A stretch of 42,977 nt of DNA from Lachnospiraceae bacterium (GTDB lineage: Bacteria > Bacillota > Clostridia > Lachnospirales > Lachnospiraceae). The notes under the pieces are model-generated. The model was given only the letters and a program-made list of their open reading frames with translations, searched no databases and was not told where the DNA came from. Positions 25,191 through 42,309 of this stretch are shown here, piece after piece. Location of the stretch: contig JAJPXU010000119.1 in the NCBI GenBank assembly GCA_021205305.1, positions 1-42,977 of the forward strand, in the 5' to 3' direction. A program made the translations under genes and the position numbers. The first letter of the stretch is position 1; each line of letters begins with the position of its first letter.

Positions 25191-25622
25191 TTATCCAAGA
25201 GCTTCACAGCAGCATCAATCAGCTGCTCCCGGCCCGCATAACAATGTCCACTTTCCGAAAGCTTGTTAAGCGTATACATGATACCGCTTCGCAGGCGTAT
25301 AAAGCGGTCTTCCAGAGTATCCTTTCCGAACTGCTGAACAATCCGTTTCGCAAACTTCGGACCAACACCTTTAATCAGACCGCTGCCCAGATATTTTTCA
25401 ATCCCGTAAGTTGTAGCCGGCAATGTTTCTTCCCACTTTTCTGCAGAAAACTGCCGCCCATACTTGCCATCAATCTTCCACTGCCCCTGCATAGAAAGTA
25501 CCGAGCCGACATGAACATCCGGCATATTTCCAACCACCGTCACCAGGTCGCTGTAGCCTTTTGCGCGGCATTTGATCACAGAGAAACCATTTTCCGCATT
25601 CTGATATGTAATTCGTTCCACA

Positions 25623-25662
25623 GTGCCAGTCAAACGCGAAGCGTTTTCTACATGACTGGCAC
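25623..25662. repeat. Palindromic element with GCGAAGC core
   Basis: GTGCCAGTC, AAACGC, loop GAA, GCGTTT, a 7-base bulge (TCTACAT), GACTGGCAC. It is translated on the minus strand as ENASR within the recD2 fragment. The core ACGCGAAGCGTTTTC (25634-25648) differs by one base from 29774-29788. Confidence 0.65.
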
Positions 25663-25667
25663 GTCCT

Positions 25668-25691
25668 GCCCCCGAACGTACGTGAGGGGGC
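25668..25691. repeat. Hairpin adjoining the palindromic element
   Basis: GCCCCC and GGGGGC separated by 12 bases containing ACGTACGT. It lies 5 bases from the 25623 element and is probably part of the same insertion. Confidence 0.5.
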
Positions 25692-25754
25692 GTTTCCCGC
25701 ATACAGCGAAGATTGTCCATAACGCCGCTACCCACCCTGCCTTAATAATTTTGT

Positions 25755-27476: not shown

Positions 27477-28373
27477 TCAATCAGAATAATGTTTGAGGGC
27501 ATGTATGTACACTTCTCCGATTGGACTGATTTTTATTCCTTTTTGCTTCACATAACCGATGCAGATTTTTTCTGACTCGACAAGCGGAATTGCTTTATAA
27601 TCCTTTCCGTTCAGTTCTTCGCAGATAATACCGGAACAGAGTGTATATGCGTTCAGACCCACCATAAGATTCAGCAATGTAGCCCGATCACTTGCGTGAA
27701 TCAGCCGTTCATATTCATATGTACTGTTCATCTCTTCCGCAAAGTAATAGGAATTGTTTTTTCCCTGGTCAAATGCCAGGCATGGGAAAGGCGCAAGCTC
27801 CTGCATGGAAATGCAGTCTTTTTCCGCCAGGGGATGCCGATGCCAGAGGTAGACATATGTGTCACATTGAAATAATTCCACGAATTCAAGGCCATTTTCA
27901 GAAATTATCTTTGTCAGCGCCTTTTCATTAAATTCGCTGCGGTACAGAATTCCTATTTCGCTTTTCAGGTTCTTCACATTTTCAATTACCTCTGCTGTCG
28001 TTGTTTCATACACAGCAAACTCATAGCAGTCAATTCCAGCCGTTTTTATGGTATCAATAAAGGCTTTTACCGCAAATGTATAATGCTGCATGGATACGCT
28101 GAATTTCTCTTTTGCGCGCTTCTCCACATAACGCTCATAAAGAAGACCAAACTGCTCGGATACCCCTCTCGCATAGTTTAAAAACTCTTCGCCTTCCCCA
28201 GTCAGCAGGATTCCCCGGTTCGTGCGTACAAAAATATTGAAGCCAATTTCATTTTCCAATTCCTTTATTGCCCCGGAAAGACTGGACTGGGAAATAAATA
28301 ACTCTTTTGCAGCGCCATTTATAGAACCGTGATCGGCAATCGCAAGGGCATATCGTAACTGTTGCAGAGTCAT
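27477..28373 (-). CDS. LysR family transcriptional regulator at the end of the sulfur locus
   Basis: A helix-turn-helix DNA-binding domain in residues 1-62 (MTLQQLRYALAIADHGSING, SQSSLSGAIKELENEIG, FVRTNRGILLT) is followed by a periplasmic-binding-like effector domain of about 230 residues. Its place as the last gene of the sulfate locus suggests a CysB/CysL-like regulator of sulfur genes, with an effector such as O-acetylserine or a related metabolite; this is inference. The ATG at 28373 lies 11 bases after AAGGAGG; an ATG at 28382 is only 2 bases from it. The frame stays open for 21 codons after the UGA stop. Confidence 0.9.
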   Translation of the reverse strand: MTLQQLRYALAIADHGSINGAAKELFISQSSLSGAIKELENEIGFNIFVRTNRGILLTGEGEEFLNYARGVSEQFGLLYERYVEKRAKEKFSVSMQHYTFAVKAFIDTIKTAGIDCYEFAVYETTTAEVIENVKNLKSEIGILYRSEFNEKALTKIISENGLEFVELFQCDTYVYLWHRHPLAEKDCISMQELAPFPCLAFDQGKNNSYYFAEEMNSTYEYERLIHASDRATLLNLMVGLNAYTLCSGIICEELNGKDYKAIPLVESEKICIGYVKQKGIKISPIGEVYIHALKHYSD

Positions 28374-28418
28374 TGCTGTCATCCCCTCCTTACTACAGTC
28401 TCTTACATAAATATAGTA

Positions 28419-34936: not shown

Positions 34937-36705
34937 GTTTTTTCTCCCCCATCCCCTGTTTTGATATCCCGGTAAAGGATCTCAATCTGCCCGTTCCGAT
35001 ATCTTGAATTAACATATTTTTCAAACCGCGGATCTGTCCTGGGATAGTCTGTATTCTCCGCAAATCCATGCCAGCGTGTCTCTTTTCTTGCCGCCATATG
35101 AGCGAGAAGCGTCCGACACACCACCAGACGTTCCCGAAGCTCATAGATACGCAGCAGATCATACATGGTTTCCGCCCGAAGAGAGGGAATCTCCTCCTGC
35201 AGCAGCCGGATTCTGCGGTCGGCCTCCTTTAATCCAGTTTCACTGTATCGGTAATCTGTGCGGATGCCGCCTGCATACTGATCCATAATTGCCTGCATGG
35301 CTTCCTCCGCCTGATCGATATCAATTACAGTACGAGATTTTGAAAGATATGCTTCATATTCCTGCTTTTTCTTCGGACTATCCTCCTCGAATCTATCCGA
35401 ATCATCCTTTCTGCCCGCACCAGCATATGCGTACCCACTCTTCTGCTCGTGAGAACCCTTCTGCGTCTTCGTATGCTCCCCCACCGCGCAATTCCCGAAA
35501 ACGCTATCTGACAGGTAGCGCATCATCGCCTCCGCCGCAATCTCCGCTTCAGCCAGCGCGCCGGTGACATATTTCTGCGGGCAGCCTCCCGCCACGTCCC
35601 CCGCAGCAAAAAGCCCCTGAAGCGTCGTCCGGCGATTTTCATCAACCCAGTATCCGCTTGCAGTATGACCTCCCACAATGTATGGCTCCGTCCCTTCGAT
35701 CTCCACATTCTTCCCTGACGGTCCGCATTCGTCCTCCAGCCACTTTAAAGTCTGCGATGGAGCCATATTCAGATACGCTTTGTATAAATCCGTCTCCTGT
35801 TCTTTGGAAATTCCTGCCGTTTTCAGGAAGCAGGGGCCGCGCCCCTCGCGGTTTTCCGTAACCGTCCCATACAGCCGCCCGGATGTCGTACGGTCATAGC
35901 GATTTTCGTACTTCTCCCCTTTGGCATTCACCTGAACGGCGGAAATTCCCTGGGCGATCGTCCCGACCGGGGCAATCGTGTCCTTGCATCGCAGAGCGAT
36001 AAAGCGCATCTCAAAGGTCGTCATCTCCGCCCCGGCCAGGATACCCATTGCATAGCCGGCCCCGGTATTAAAAGGAGGATACCAGAGTTTGTGTCTCGAG
36101 AATCCGGGATTATTGGGGCGATAGAGACCTGATGCCCCGCCGGTCGCAATCAGTACCGCTTTCGCGTGAATCTCGTAAAACACGGGAGCATTCACATCAA
36201 ATCCATATGCTCCTCGCACTGTGCCATCTTCCAGAAAATAATCTGTAATATTGACATGATTCAAAACCGCCACGTTCGGCTGAGAAGATGCTGCGTTCGC
36301 CAACAGCGGTTTGATGTTTTCTCCGTTAATCTTAATATTGCGCCATCCACGTGAGGCATAGCTGCCGTCCTCATTTTTCAAAATGACCAGCCCAAGCCGC
36401 TCCAGTTCTTCCGTCACCTCATTGAGGCGCCCGGACATGGACAAAAGCAGATCCTCCCGCGCAATCCCCTGGGCGTCCCTTTTGGCGTAATCTACGTAAT
36501 CCTGCGGCGTGTGCCCGTCCGTAATATAGGCATTCAGCGCATTTACCCCTGCCGCAAGACAGCCGCTGCGCCGGATATTCGCTTTTTCCACGATCAAAAC
36601 ATGATAATCGGATCTCTGTCCAAGGATGTAAGCGGCATAGCACCCCGCCGTTCCACCGCCGATGATGAGGATGTCTGTAGAAAGCACTTTTGTTTCAAGG
36701 GTCAT
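34933..36705 (-). CDS. aprA: Adenylylsulfate reductase alpha subunit AprA
   Basis: A flavoenzyme that reduces APS to sulfite and AMP. The FAD-binding N-terminus is DILIIGGGTAGCYAAYIL; NIRRSGCLAAGVNALNAYI, GGASGLYRPNNPGFSRHKLW and GLFAAGDVAGGCPQKYVTG are characteristic of AprA rather than fumarate reductase. The length of 590 aa is slightly below that of dissimilatory enzymes. A Lys/Glu-rich insertion occurs near residues 405-450. It sits between the sulfate importer and ATP sulfurylase genes and replaces CysH/CysC. The ATG at 36705 overlaps the cysA stop by four bases. Confidence 0.9.
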   Translation of the reverse strand: MTLETKVLSTDILIIGGGTAGCYAAYILGQRSDYHVLIVEKANIRRSGCLAAGVNALNAYITDGHTPQDYVDYAKRDAQGIAREDLLLSMSGRLNEVTEELERLGLVILKNEDGSYASRGWRNIKINGENIKPLLANAASSQPNVAVLNHVNITDYFLEDGTVRGAYGFDVNAPVFYEIHAKAVLIATGGASGLYRPNNPGFSRHKLWYPPFNTGAGYAMGILAGAEMTTFEMRFIALRCKDTIAPVGTIAQGISAVQVNAKGEKYENRYDRTTSGRLYGTVTENREGRGPCFLKTAGISKEQETDLYKAYLNMAPSQTLKWLEDECGPSGKNVEIEGTEPYIVGGHTASGYWVDENRRTTLQGLFAAGDVAGGCPQKYVTGALAEAEIAAEAMMRYLSDSVFGNCAVGEHTKTQKGSHEQKSGYAYAGAGRKDDSDRFEEDSPKKKQEYEAYLSKSRTVIDIDQAEEAMQAIMDQYAGGIRTDYRYSETGLKEADRRIRLLQEEIPSLRAETMYDLLRIYELRERLVVCRTLLAHMAARKETRWHGFAENTDYPRTDPRFEKYVNSRYRNGQIEILYRDIKTGDGGEKT

Positions 36706-37805
36706 ATGATCACCGTCTCTTCTGTGTTGATCAGCGAATTTCCAACGATCTGTACCTTCTGATCTTCGCTAAACACATAGGCGCGGTAGATAAATACCCG
36801 GACTTTTTCCCCTTCCTGCACCGGCGCCTCTTCAATTTTCCGCATCCCCTGCACAAGAATCCCGTGAATCCTCACCCACAGGTCAATCTCGCGTCCGCGG
36901 AAGAGCACGCGCTCGACGATCCCTTCCTCTGTGGAAATTTCATAACGGAGTGTCTCCCCTTCTTTGGAAATACTCACATTCTCCGGCCGGATGACAGCGT
37001 GGTATTCCGAACCAAGCTGCCCGAACCCACTGAAACTTCCGATATTGTCAATCCGAGTCGGATGTCCCATGAATTCCGCGACGAAAGCGGTATCCGGATT
37101 GCGGTAAATCTCCATCGGTGAACCGATCTGTTCAATCCGACCCGCATTGGTGATGATAATCTCATCCGCCACCTCGATCGCCTCGTCCTGATCATGAGTA
37201 ACAAAGATGCTGGTCACCCCGACCTTATTAATCATTTCCCGCAGCCAGGCGCGAAGCTCTTGTCTCACTTTCGCGTCAATCGCGGCAAACGGCTCATCTA
37301 AAAGCAGCAGCTCCGGATTCGGCGCAAGTGCCCTTGCAAAGGCAACTCTCTGTCTCTGACCGCCGGAGAGCTGGTTCGGATAGCGTTTTTCCAGTCCCTC
37401 CAGCCCGATCAGGGAGATCAGCTCATTTACCCGCTCCCGGATGTCTTTTGTTTTCCATTTATTCACCTTCAGGCCAAAGGCGATATTGTCATACACCGTC
37501 TTATAGCGGAACAACGCATAATTCTGGAATACGAAACCCACGCCGCGTTTGCTGGCAGGAACATCGCTGACATCCTTTCCATCAATCCGGATCTCACCCG
37601 AATCCGCCGTCTCCAGACCGGCGATGATGCGTAATATCGTGGTTTTCCCACTTCCGCTCGGCCCAAGCAGGGCAACCAGCCTCCCTTTTTCCACACCAAA
37701 ACTCACATCCTGTGATGCCTGGCAATCCTGAAAGGCCTTGTTAATTCCTCTGAGTTCCAGATAGTTCTCGTTTGCTGCTTCTGTTTTGTTGTTTCGCTGT
37801 TCCAT
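36702..37805 (-). CDS. cysA: Sulfate/thiosulfate ABC transporter ATPase CysA
   Basis: Energises sulfate uptake through CysT-CysW. Walker A is GPSGSGKTT, the signature LSGGQRQRVAFARAL, Walker B LLLLDEPFAAID, and the H-loop is VTHDQDEA. A C-terminal regulatory (TOBE-like) region starts near residue 240. The length of 367 aa is normal. It starts 18 bases after cysW and ends overlapping aprA. Confidence 0.95.
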   Translation of the reverse strand: MEQRNNKTEAANENYLELRGINKAFQDCQASQDVSFGVEKGRLVALLGPSGSGKTTILRIIAGLETADSGEIRIDGKDVSDVPASKRGVGFVFQNYALFRYKTVYDNIAFGLKVNKWKTKDIRERVNELISLIGLEGLEKRYPNQLSGGQRQRVAFARALAPNPELLLLDEPFAAIDAKVRQELRAWLREMINKVGVTSIFVTHDQDEAIEVADEIIITNAGRIEQIGSPMEIYRNPDTAFVAEFMGHPTRIDNIGSFSGFGQLGSEYHAVIRPENVSISKEGETLRYEISTEEGIVERVLFRGREIDLWVRIHGILVQGMRKIEEAPVQEGEKVRVFIYRAYVFSEDQKVQIVGNSLINTEETVII

Positions 37806-37823: not shown

Positions 37824-38651
37824 CTATATCGTCTGATTCTCCTGCTTTCCCCTTCGTTCCAGCACGCTGCGGAGGATCAGGATCAGCACCGCCATCAGCA
37901 CCAGAATTGCCGACACCGCAAACGCTCCTGTGAAATCATATCCCTGGTACAAAAGTTCGATATAAAGCGGCATGGTATTGGTTTTCCCTCGCAAATGTCC
38001 GGACAATACCGATACCGCGCCGAACTCTCCCATCGCTCTGGCGCTGCAGAGGACAATTCCATACAGAAGCGACCATTTGATATGCGGAAACGTGATTTCA
38101 CGAAAAATCCGAAATCCCCCGGCGCCCATCAGCGCTGCCGCTTCCTCTTCATCCGTCCCCTTCGCAGTCAGCACCGGAATAATCTCCCTCGATACAAATG
38201 GGAACGTGACAAAAATCGTTGCCAGCACAATTCCAGGGACTGCAAAAATAATCTGGATACCGGCTTCTTTTAGATACGGATATAATGCACTCTGCCGCCC
38301 AAAGGTCAGCACATAGATCAATCCGGCGATGATTGGCGACACCGTAAGCGGCAGATCAATCAGCGTTGAAATAATTTTCTTTCCTCTGAACTGGAAACGG
38401 GTGATCAGCCAGGCTGCGAAAATACCAAAAATGGTATTAAAAATCACGGTAAGTACAGTCACTTCAATTGTCAGCAAAATTGCCTTTACCGCATACTCAT
38501 CCGACACAGCCTCCCAGAATGCCCCGACTCCTTCCCGGAAAGCGGTCACAAGGACATAGATCAACGGCAACACCAACATGACGATCAGAAAGACCGCGCA
38601 GATTCCGATGAGCAGCCATTTTACAGGTCCCGAGTTTTTCTTTGTGTTCAT
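37824..38651 (-). CDS. cysW: Sulfate ABC transporter permease CysW
   Basis: A membrane subunit with six predicted helices. The EAA-type loop is EEEAAALMGAGGFRIFREITFPH, read in two parts (EEEAAALMGAGG, REITFPHIKW), where CysA docks. The length of 275 aa is typical. It starts 12 bases after cysT. Confidence 0.94.
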   Translation of the reverse strand: MNTKKNSGPVKWLLIGICAVFLIVMLVLPLIYVLVTAFREGVGAFWEAVSDEYAVKAILLTIEVTVLTVIFNTIFGIFAAWLITRFQFRGKKIISTLIDLPLTVSPIIAGLIYVLTFGRQSALYPYLKEAGIQIIFAVPGIVLATIFVTFPFVSREIIPVLTAKGTDEEEAAALMGAGGFRIFREITFPHIKWSLLYGIVLCSARAMGEFGAVSVLSGHLRGKTNTMPLYIELLYQGYDFTGAFAVSAILVLMAVLILILRSVLERRGKQENQTI

Positions 38652-38663
38652 AAAAATCGCCTC

Positions 38664-39551
38664 CTATGCGATTCCGCTCACGATACGTGATGCACGGCTC
38701 TGTACCACTGCATTAATAAAAAGGATTGCAAAAGCCGCCAGCAGCATCACCAAAGCGATCGATGTCGCACTGGCATAGTCGTATTCCTGCAGCTCCGACA
38801 TAATCATCAGAGGGGCAATTTCGGTCTTATACGGCGTATTTCCCGCTATAAACACGACACTGCCGTACTCTCCGAGTCCCCTCGCGAATGAGGTAGTAAA
38901 GCCTGCGATCAATGCCGGAAAAATCTCCGGCAGGATCACATGTCTTAATGTCTGTCCACTGCTTGCGCCTAAAATATTGGCCGCCTCTTCAAACTGCGGA
39001 TCAAGGCTTTCCAGTACCGGCTGTACTGACCGGACGACAAAGGGAATTCCGATAAACACCAAGGCTACCGTAATACCGGTCGTTGTATACGCGATCTTTA
39101 TGCCAAACCGGTTAAAGAAACTCCCTACCCAGCCATTTGTGGTAGTAAGATGGGTAAGAGAAATACCCGCGACCGCCGTCGGAAGTGCAAATGGAAGTTC
39201 AATAATCCCATTCATGATTTCTTTTCCCGGAAACTCATAGCGTACCAGTACCCAGGCCAGGATCGTACCCATCACCGCATCAATCACCGCTGCGACAAAA
39301 GCAGTCCGGAAGCTGACTGCGTAGCTGGATAATACCCTGGGTCTGGTCACGGTACTGATGAAATCCGCAAACGAGAGCTGTGCGGAATAAATAACCAGCG
39401 TACAAAGCGGAATGACCACGATCAGCCCCAGCATAGCCGTCACGATTCCAAGAGAAAGGCCAAACCCCGGAATCACCCGTTTCTTTTTTCTCTTCTTTTC
39501 TTTCAAATGAGTTCCACCTTTCCTTGTTGGCAGCCCGTTCTTCACAAACAT
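38664..39551 (-). CDS. cysT: Sulfate ABC transporter permease CysT (CysU)
   Basis: The second membrane subunit of the sulfate importer, with six helices and the EAA loop (EEAANILGASSGQTLRHVI). The N-terminus is very basic (KEKKRKKKR). The ATG at 39551, two bases after the sbp stop, has only AAGAG; a TTG at 39506 has AAGGTGG 7 bases upstream and may be the real start. It forms the importer with CysW, CysA and the binding protein. Confidence 0.93.
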   Translation of the reverse strand: MFVKNGLPTRKGGTHLKEKKRKKKRVIPGFGLSLGIVTAMLGLIVVIPLCTLVIYSAQLSFADFISTVTRPRVLSSYAVSFRTAFVAAVIDAVMGTILAWVLVRYEFPGKEIMNGIIELPFALPTAVAGISLTHLTTTNGWVGSFFNRFGIKIAYTTTGITVALVFIGIPFVVRSVQPVLESLDPQFEEAANILGASSGQTLRHVILPEIFPALIAGFTTSFARGLGEYGSVVFIAGNTPYKTEIAPLMIMSELQEYDYASATSIALVMLLAAFAILFINAVVQSRASRIVSGIA

Positions 39552-39553
39552 TC

Positions 39554-40618
39554 TTACTCTTCATAGATACTGTCGAAAATAGCTCCGTCCACAAAGTGTG
39601 TCTCTGTCGCCTCTGTCCATCCGCCAAAATGGCTGATGTCCGTCAGTTCAACATTCGTATTAATCCACTTGCCATCCTCCGGAATCTCGGTGATCGTATT
39701 GCTCTCATCCTCCGTCGCGTACTCCGCAAGAATCTCTTCATTTGATGGGCGATAATAATTTTCTGCCTCCAGACGCTGAGCCTCATCCGAATACAGATAG
39801 CTCAGATACTCAGTCGCGACCTCCCTTGTGCCTCTCTCATCCACGACCTCATCTACGATCGCTACAGTTGGCTGGCAGAGGATGGATACCGACGGAACCA
39901 CAATCTCATACTCACCCGGATACTCTTCCAGTGCCAGAAATGCTTCATTTTCCCAGGCAATCAGCACATCTCCCTGTCCGTTCTCTGTGAATGTCGTCGT
40001 CGCGCCGCGCGCACCGGAATCAAGTACCAGAACATTCTCATACAGTGTCTTAATGCTCTCCTGAATCTCCTCCTCACTCTGCCCCTGCAGCTCGAAATAG
40101 TACCAGGCCGCCAGATAATTCCAGCGCGCGCCACCGGAAGTCTTCGGATTCGGCGTAATCACACCCACACCCTCATTCAGCAGGTCATCCCAGTCCTGAA
40201 TATCCTTCGGATTACCGGAGCGTACCAGAAAGACAATCGTCGAAGTATAAGGTGAGCTGTCCAAATCAAATTCTGAGGTGTACCCCTCTTCAATCAGCCC
40301 CGCATCTACAAGTGTATCCACATCACCCTCCAGCGCCAATGTCACTACATCCGCCTCAAGGCCGTTCGCCACCTCAAGCGCCTGCTTACCGGAGCCGCCG
40401 TGAGACTGTACGATCTCGACCTCCTCGCCGGTCAGTTCCAGCCAGTGTGCCTGAAACAGCTCATTGTAAGCTGCGTAAAGCTCTCTGGTCGGGTCATACG
40501 AAACGTTTGTGATCTCCACACTTGCGGCAGACACCGGTACGCTGCCAACACCCAGCGCGAGTGCGCATAAGCTTGCTGCCGAGCCGCTTAAAAATTCTCT
40601 TCTGGTTATTCTTGTCAT
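39554..40618 (-). CDS. Sulfate-binding lipoprotein/periplasmic-type protein (Sbp/CysP)
   Basis: The extracytoplasmic sulfate receptor of the ABC importer. The N-terminus TRITRREFLSGSAASL has a twin-arginine-like RRxFL motif before a hydrophobic stretch ending VSAAS, so export may use the Tat route. The mature part contains NVSYDPTRELYAAYNELF and QSHGGSGKQALEVANGLEA, signatures of sulfate/thiosulfate-binding proteins. The length is 354 aa. GGAGG lies 9 bases before the ATG at 40618. It is the first structural gene after a leader with two small ORFs. Confidence 0.94.
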   Translation of the reverse strand: MTRITRREFLSGSAASLCALALGVGSVPVSAASVEITNVSYDPTRELYAAYNELFQAHWLELTGEEVEIVQSHGGSGKQALEVANGLEADVVTLALEGDVDTLVDAGLIEEGYTSEFDLDSSPYTSTIVFLVRSGNPKDIQDWDDLLNEGVGVITPNPKTSGGARWNYLAAWYYFELQGQSEEEIQESIKTLYENVLVLDSGARGATTTFTENGQGDVLIAWENEAFLALEEYPGEYEIVVPSVSILCQPTVAIVDEVVDERGTREVATEYLSYLYSDEAQRLEAENYYRPSNEEILAEYATEDESNTITEIPEDGKWINTNVELTDISHFGGWTEATETHFVDGAIFDSIYEE

Positions 40619-40719: not shown

Positions 40720-40764
40720 TCAACAATTGCAGATTCCCCCCGCAGATAAAAATATCCGTTTCAT
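40720..40764 (-). CDS. Cys-ending leader peptide ORF of the sulfate operon
   Basis: A 14-codon ORF, MKRIFLSAGGICNC, with GGAGG 5 bases before its ATG, the best initiation site in the leader. Two of its last three codons are Cys (TGC, TGT). It lies about 100 bases upstream of the sulfate-binding gene and just downstream of the promoter. By analogy with actinobacterial Cys-codon leaders of sulfur genes, ribosome stalling when charged tRNA-Cys is scarce could control the operon. This is inference from sequence. Confidence 0.6.
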   Translation of the reverse strand: MKRIFLSAGGICNC

Positions 40765-40779
40765 GTGTTCCTCCATTTT

Positions 40780-40796
40780 CCTACTAAATTAATAGG
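40780..40796. promoter_or_regulatory. Operator-like palindrome at the sulfate operon start site
   Basis: CCTACTAAATTAATAGG, a near-perfect palindrome positioned between the -10 box and the leader ORF, where a repressor would block transcription. It resembles sites of Rrf2-type (CymR/IscR-like) regulators in general form; the assignment is tentative. Confidence 0.45.
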
Positions 40797-40797
40797 T

Positions 40798-40827
40798 TTT
40801 ATATGCTATGAGGTAATCATACAACAA
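40798..40827 (-). promoter_or_regulatory. Candidate promoter of the sulfate operon
   Basis: Minus strand: TTGTTG (40822-40827), 18 bases, TATAAA (40798-40803). The -35 box is a poor match and overlaps the T-tract of the metY terminator. Confidence 0.4.
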
Positions 40828-40856
40828 AAAAAGGAATCCGTCAATTTCCGGATTCC
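40825..40856 (-). terminator. Terminator of metY
   Basis: Minus strand: stem GGAATCCG, 8-base loop, CGGATTCC, followed by a run of seven or eight Ts. It separates metY from the sulfate operon. A second hairpin without a function I can name (GTTATCTGT-TTT-ACAGATAAC, 40865-40885) lies between it and the metY stop. Confidence 0.85.
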
Positions 40857-40912
40857 GATAACTGGTTATCTGTTTTACAGATAACTACTTTTTATTATTT
40901 GCTCCTTCCTGT

Positions 40913-42278: not shown

Positions 42279-42309
42279 CCGATAGCCAGCTATCGGAAAT
42301 TCAGATAGC
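42279..42309. promoter_or_regulatory. Three-half-site regulator array upstream of metY
   Basis: CCGATAGC-CA-GCTATCGG (42279-42296) followed, after the 9-base spacer of GCTATC-N9-GATAGC, by a third GATAGC at 42304-42309. The placement just upstream of the -35 box is that of LysR-type activators. The LysR protein at 27477 is a candidate but not shown. Confidence 0.55.

Follow-up and report, generated by a model that had tools for sequence, protein, structure and literature searches.

SAGG leaders, an apparently unnamed family of tiny leader peptides with one invariant cysteine ahead of sulfur-related genes in Lachnospiraceae

The window analysed here spans positions 1 to 42,977 of contig JAJPXU010000119.1 from a Lachnospiraceae bacterium (assembly GCA_021205305.1). 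It carries, on the minus strand, a sulfate operon preceded by a short ORF of 14 codons and a TGA stop (40764..40720), whose translation is MKRIFLSAGGICNC*. The initial annotation had described an ORF with a ribosome binding site and a Cys-Asn-Cys-stop end before sulfate genes, and this description was confirmed. Read on the minus strand from 40774 to 40720, the letters are GGAGG-AACAC-ATG AAA CGG ATA TTT TTA TCT GCG GGG GGA ATC TGC AAT TGT TGA, and the leader stop codon lies 101 nt before the ATG (40618) of the sulfate-binding-protein gene. The features of the locus are as follows.

36702..37805, minus strand: operon gene for an ABC ATPase, identified by eye in the translation
37824..38651, minus strand: operon gene for an ABC permease, identified by eye in the translation
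38664..39551, minus strand: operon gene for an ABC permease, identified by eye in the translation
39554..40618, minus strand: sulfate ABC transporter substrate-binding protein (TIGR00971, E 3.3e-109, over the cut-off)
40720..40764, minus strand: leader ORF MKRIFLSAGGICNC*, translated from the window DNA and kept in relatives
40723..40725, minus strand: codon 14, TGT (Cys), the proposed stalling codon; TGT in 24/24 leaders and in 10/19 other motif matches
40732..40752, minus strand: codons 5-11, conserved peptide FLSAGGI; amino acids constant, third bases variable
40770..40774, minus strand: Shine-Dalgarno sequence (SD) GGAGG of the leader ORF, 5 nt upstream of the ATG
40780..40796, minus strand: dyad CCTATTAATTTAGTAGG, which could be an operator or a 5' hairpin; over 12 sequences, 90.5% of the cells are paired
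40816..40844, minus strand: sigma-70-type promoter TTGACG-17-TATGAT, by consensus match only
40833..40856, minus strand: intrinsic-terminator-like hairpin behind the upstream metY-like gene (PF01053), overlapping the sulfate promoter
40855..40872, no strand: dyad AGATAACCAGTTATCGG, putative LysR-type-like operator on the sulfate promoter side
42279-42296, no strand: perfect dyad CGATAGCCAGCTATCGG before the metY-like gene, resembling the dyad at 40855-40872

An in-frame ATG at 40776 would give an 18-codon ORF in the window, an option present at locus L010 too. At L011 its counterpart is out of frame and soon runs into a stop (ATGGAGGGAAGAATATGA), and the 14-codon start was therefore taken as the conserved one. 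By eye, the window has further mini-ORFs in the stretch that separates the leader from the sulfate gene, one of them with two Cys codons; no counterpart of this two-Cys mini-ORF was seen by eye in L011.

The likelihood of such an ORF arising by chance was assessed with 2000 dinucleotide-preserving shuffles of the 294-nt region, which were searched for ATG ORFs of 8-40 codons with a strong SD. ORFs of this kind appeared in 10.2% of the shuffles and those with Cys in the last two codons in 0.4%, while an SD-preceded ORF ending C-x-C or C-C was found in none (0/2000). The leader was also searched with the Rfam covariance models. No family exceeded its cut-off, and the T-box (RF00230) was absent from all five sub-threshold matches up to E 10, in agreement with the earlier remark that the leader has no T-box. 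The best of the five was the ylbH leader (E 0.86, 14.8 bits against a cut-off of 50). Elsewhere in the genome T-boxes gave 11 matches at E <= 0.001, 4 of them over the cut-off. A GA-cis RNA (RF02987, 48.4 bits) was observed at 25619-25701 of the window.

Upstream of the leader, the promoter -35 element is identical in eight aligned relatives, and the -10 element reads TATCAT in two of the eight. A dyad ahead of the SD is common to the sulfate leaders except L020, and is shared by the L088 and L152 leaders. When the dyad at 40780-40796 was compared with 500 shuffles, its paired percentage was reached in 150, its both-side changes in 17-18 and its covariation score in 33; the covariation at this dyad is not decisive as support for an RNA hairpin. 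The LysR-like dyad pattern occurs in two places, each matched on both strands, against a shuffle mean of 0.24 for a pattern that was written from these very sites. A LysR-type gene is present in the window (27477-28382), and the dyads upstream of the promoter suggest additional LysR-type control.

The conservation of the leader was examined in 47 genomes of the genus; in 14 of them the sulfate-binding protein is matched at E <= 1e-30. Ten of these 14 sulfate loci carry a short upstream ORF with the motif, which L018, L019, L021 and L022 lack. The peptides at the sulfate loci are MKLIFLSAGGICNC, MRLIFLSAGGICGC, MKAVFLSAGGICGCSN, MRLIFLSVGGICDCCR, MRVVFLSAGGICGCSSCQ... (two), MRKIFLSAGGIIGCSG..., MRLIFLSAGGICDCCR and MKRSYRVFLAVGGVAACCRSEE, plus the window's MKRIFLSAGGICNC. 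The initial annotation had named a lack of conservation of the ORF or its Cys codons in relatives as a ground for rejection, and this did not apply: the 10 loci have kept the ORF, the peptide and the terminal Cys codon, and show synonymous changes at other codons. Two further copies lie at operons that by eye are seemingly broken; in L052 the sulfate-binding gene is missing behind the leader, and in L061 this first gene is seemingly cut short. The L061 peptide has lost the first Cys and retains FLSAGGI and TGT-14. The SD of the sulfate-type leaders is GGAGG in 11/12 and GAGGAG in L020. Outside the genus, where 45 genomes had a sulfate-gene match, the leader was absent in all 28 loci inspected. 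A contig scan for [IV]FLSAGGI[CI] gave 30 matched stretches, of which 4 were confirmed, all in Lachnospiraceae or Clostridiales MAGs.

Leaders of the same kind, here called SAGG leaders, also occur ahead of other genes. A profile built from the leaders of sulfate loci alone (A1) detected six non-sulfate members at E 0.037 to 0.99 in the 47 genus genomes. A later profile (A6), with many non-sulfate members among its rows, gave 17 matches below E 0.001 in the same genomes, with L158, L161 and L114 at 0.02 to 0.07. A family-wide profile search of 397 genomes found L084, L088 and L177, and L152 was found by profile search in the 13 genomes of the genus of G188. On first detection, all but one of the 12 non-sulfate members had weak E-values (0.005 to 1). 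Acceptance demanded a short ORF with a start codon and an SD, with the exception of L114, whose nearest ATG is one base out of frame; since the gene behind was also considered, the association with sulfur genes is in part a consequence of how members were chosen. Part of the weak profile matches were inspected in batches, of which 2/15, 5/8, 0/22, 0/8, 1/4, 2/10 and 1/13 were accepted, some loci being seen twice; the order search behind the 0/22 batch had a match in 53/294 genomes. The rejected matches had no start with SD, lay inside or across a larger gene (by eye, for example, off-frame in uvrB) or lacked a sulfur context.

Altogether 24 leaders were collected. Half of them (12) are of the sulfate type, and the other 12, which precede different genes, span four genera of one family. 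Six of the non-sulfate members precede SsuA-type, YeiH-type or DUF2292/metK genes and six precede amino-acid-type binding proteins, as listed below.

L065, L084, L117: SsuA-type binding protein behind the leader (TIGR01728)
L113, L114, L115, L088 (locus L119): SBP_bac_3 protein behind the leader (Pfam)
L116, L152: SBP_bac_3 protein behind the leader (by similarity)
L158: YeiH-type gene behind the leader (PF03601 over the cut-off, TIGR00698 below)
L161: DUF2292 gene and then metK behind the leader (metK from its matches and by eye)
L177: metK of a divergent clade behind the leader

The TIGR01728 match is over the cut-off for L117 and L118 (locus of L084) and below it for L120 (locus of L065). 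The L065 leader overlaps the end of a DUF2292 gene, and its operon continues with SsuA-type ABC, radical-SAM, NifH-like and nitrogenase-component-like genes, possibly for sulfur scavenging. The best NCBIfam matches of the L113 binding protein and permease are cystine-type models, both below the cut-off; for L114, L115 and L119 the best models are of the lysine/arginine/ornithine type, likewise below the cut-off, and the substrates are thus putative. A possible further SAGG leader with TGT (MKRGNYMSAGGVIRC..., L155:1400-1600), ahead of a gene that by eye is MBL-fold-like, was left out of the 24. Searched against Pfam and NCBIfam up to E 5, four peptides of 22-36 aa gave no match, and our search of open-licence papers, part of it with the motif wording, found no description of a SAGG peptide. 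The SAGG leaders appear to be an unnamed family of tiny leader peptides.

Across the 24 leaders the consensus is F-[LIVYC]-S-A-G-G-[ILM]-x-x-C with few exceptions, and it ends at one invariant Cys. F5 is found in 20, S7 and A8 in 22 each, and G9, G10 and C14 in all 24; position 6 holds L, I, V, Y, C or T and position 11 holds I, L, M or V, and positions 12 and 13 are variable. Third bases vary in the codons for Gly, Ser, Ala and Ile, which is a coding signal, whereas F5 is TTT in 19/20. The initial annotation had singled out the Cys-Asn-Cys end. Its last Cys is present in 24/24, but the first (position 12) is Cys in only 9/24 and another residue in 15/24, so the Cys-x-Cys pair is not the hallmark. 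At codon 15, 10 of the 24 leaders have a stop, 8 have Cys and 4 have Ser, with single cases of Arg and Lys; such variability would be expected if codon 14 is the site that matters.

Codon 14 is TGT in 24/24 leaders (21/21 distinct 24-mers). TGT makes up 63/152 of the Cys codons in the 28 window ORFs picked as genes, and among the other motif matches in the fetched DNA it is found in 10/19 under strict matching (L155 included) and in 10/22 under looser matching. By our own arithmetic, the probability that all 9 strict TGC matches fall outside the 21 distinct members is 3.4e-4. The member searches were peptide-based and thus blind to codon choice. The 24 leaders are non-independent: there are sulfate types that hardly differ from one another, and L088 pairs with L152 and L115 with L116. 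At a TGT share of 41%, finding TGT throughout has a probability of 2.6e-5 if 12 cases are independent and of 1.5e-4 if 10 are, the independent number being a matter of judgement. In addition, a context-blind scan for the motif in a short SD-preceded ORF, with TGC allowed, was run over 217 fetched sequences (777 kb, enriched for members). It recovered 20 member peptides and L155, every one with TGT, and missed L020, L114 and L161 through its pattern or frame rules.

Collectively, the leader ORF is real, conserved and linked to sulfur genes. Selection seems to act jointly on the peptide and the codon, which points to a ribosome event at codon 14, and the sharp end of conservation at that codon is the trace that a ribosome paused there would leave. 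We propose that the SAGG leaders act in cis and put sulfur-related genes under translational sensing of cysteine, through nascent-peptide-assisted stalling at UGU-14 when Cys-tRNA is scarce; judged from the sequence comparisons, we regard this proposal as evenly balanced between right and wrong. UGU would be read through wobble by tRNA-Cys(GCA), and wobble would slow decoding. A ribosome that has made FLSAGGIxx would pause with UGU-14 in its A site. This would place the conserved residues about 2-8 positions back in the exit tunnel, the region in which arrest peptides work. The pause would be short as long as Cys-tRNA is plentiful, and with scarce Cys-tRNA the wobble-read UGU would lengthen it; the ribosome stalled near the 5' end would raise expression of the operon. 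B. subtilis ribosomes do become slower at Cys codons during serine starvation (PMC3862929).

For the output step, terminators, Rho sites and RNA folds were considered. No intrinsic terminator (at least 5 pairs, 2 of them G-C, a loop of 3-10, then 5 T in 8) was found in any of 22 spacers; runs of 5 or more T occur in 8 of the 22, some behind weak A-T stems by eye. Rho termination was rejected as a candidate, the spacers being C-poor (2-19% C), unlike Rho sites. In 21 leaders folded with a thermodynamic model only, a ribosome on codon 14 raised the accessibility of the first gene's SD by 0.17-0.21 in three (the window, L010 and L020), with a predicted change from 0.56 to 0.77 in the window. The change was at most 0.10 in the other 18, and a consistent SD switch was not found among the 21 folds. 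Given that neither a terminator nor a consistent SD switch was found, protection of the leader RNA or polymerase-ribosome coupling is our guess as the most likely output.

A different reading of the same conservation is that, inside the tunnel, the nascent SAGGIxxC peptide binds a small sulfur metabolite (cysteine, SAM or sulfide), by which the ribosome would be arrested or released independently of Cys-tRNA charging, in the manner of TnaC. The conserved peptide, the ORF stop at codon 15 in 10/24 leaders and the position of leaders before metK as well as uptake genes would all fit this reading, but the TGT-14 bias favours decoding of codon 14, and the variable codon 15 also speaks against it; we consider ligand sensing rather unlikely.

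The initial annotation itself had favoured plain starvation attenuation, in which Cys codons would be counted; mycobacteria have attenuation of this kind. This interpretation is partly supported: the terminal Cys and the sulfur genes behind it agree with the model, and the link to sulfur genes is wider than had been claimed. However, position 12 is mostly not Cys, FLSAGGI is conserved beyond need, the constant TGT-14 is left unexplained, and neither a terminator nor a consistent SD switch was found, all of which makes counting of Cys codons an improbable account of the SAGG leaders. Leaders of that type do exist in the same family. A scan for Cys-rich short ORFs returned 16 rows; 4 of these were SAGG leaders, 3 belonged to two leader-like ORFs and 9 were others. 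One of the two ORFs, MCRCCSCQVHCCICI* (L044:2440-3010, minus strand), lies 21 nt before a DUF2292 gene that is followed by a sulfate-binding protein gene; the other, MRPYFNTEICCCMCMC... (L189:2660-3300, minus strand), is followed by a terminator-like hairpin (by eye), tRNA-Cys(GCA), a DUF2292 gene and a divergent metK. Alongside the SAGG leaders, then, other genomes of the family apparently have plain Cys-rich leaders of the actinobacterial type, and the earlier remark that no such case is known from Clostridia needs care.

The divergent metK clade (L187-L191) is 76-81% identical to the L161 MetK and comes from five genomes, each with a second metK match. In L190 a tRNA-Cys likewise lies just before the divergent metK. 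No S-box was seen by eye upstream of the L187-L191 metK genes, and S-box-like sequences were seen by eye before three metK genes (L192-L194).

A micropeptide acting in trans, for example by binding the transporter, a metal or a persulfide through its Cys, would account for conserved amino acids at the head of transporter operons, and copper sensing by CruR offers a precedent for thiols in uORFs (PMC9426467). Against this, TGT-14 would be left unexplained, CXXC is absent, the peptides are very short and the four examined gave no Pfam or NCBIfam match up to E 5, and we give a function in trans little credence. Least of all do we expect a chance ORF with sulfur control at the promoter alone, through a LysR-type regulator and the dyads. 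The dyads before the sulfate operon and the metY-like gene and the LysR-type gene speak for it, but the peptide and codon are conserved across operons and genera and no shuffle (0/2000) reproduced the ORF's end; promoter and leader control can coexist.

With cysteine sensing at UGU-14 as the preferred reading, we put forward a more specific claim with somewhat less confidence: the SAGG leaders may be a new arrest-peptide family for sulfur supply, in which the nascent chain arms a stall at one invariant wobble-read UGU, a single Cys codon being enough to read Cys-tRNA charging, before several sulfur operons of one bacterium and with no terminator. If true, an arrest-type peptide combined with one codon would be a more economical starvation sensor, and synonymous codon choice could itself be regulatory. 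Lachnospiraceae would then gain a cysteine-sensing layer beside T-boxes and LysR-type regulators, and this layer would tie together sulfate, sulfonate-type, amino-acid-type and SAM genes.

T-box and S-box leaders, through which Firmicutes usually control amino acid and sulfur genes at the RNA level, have no match in the window leader. Starvation leaders normally consist of several codons of the starved amino acid and a terminator, and polycysteine ORFs were reportedly described in mycobacteria by Canestrari in 2020. The mycobacterial-type Cys leaders resemble the SAGG leaders in being short ORFs before sulfur genes with Cys near the stop and no conserved or obvious terminator (PMC1262725, PMC4633059). 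Like that class, the SAGG leaders are short ORFs that have a start signal and immediately precede sulfur genes. The mycobacterial-type leaders have runs of Cys codons, whereas the SAGG leaders have one invariant Cys, a conserved peptide, a fixed UGU and Lachnospiraceae hosts; with Cys at position 12 in 9/24 and at position 15 in 8/24, a run of Cys codons near the stop is missing, and for this reason they do not belong to the Cys-run attenuators. The uORFC-8-2 motif before cysS in Rhodobacterales is likewise a uORF, with Cys usually at positions 14 and 15; it has two tandem Cys codons, mostly UGC, within a stem, and an intrinsic terminator (PMC8632094), whereas the SAGG leaders have no such pair or terminator. 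There is also a likeness to arrest peptides such as TnaC, ErmCL and SecM, and to CruR, a nascent CXXC uORF protein that senses copper (PMC9426467). In these, conserved residues lie at the presumed stall point or immediately behind it, and the gene behind is regulated; in the SAGG leaders, too, amino acids just upstream of the putative stall point are conserved with free synonymous change. By eye, the sequences of these arrest peptides are unrelated to SAGG, and in the SAGG leaders, where arrest is predicted, the stall codon itself is seemingly selected. The SAGG leader is thus best filed as a regulatory leader peptide distinct from the Cys-run attenuator class.
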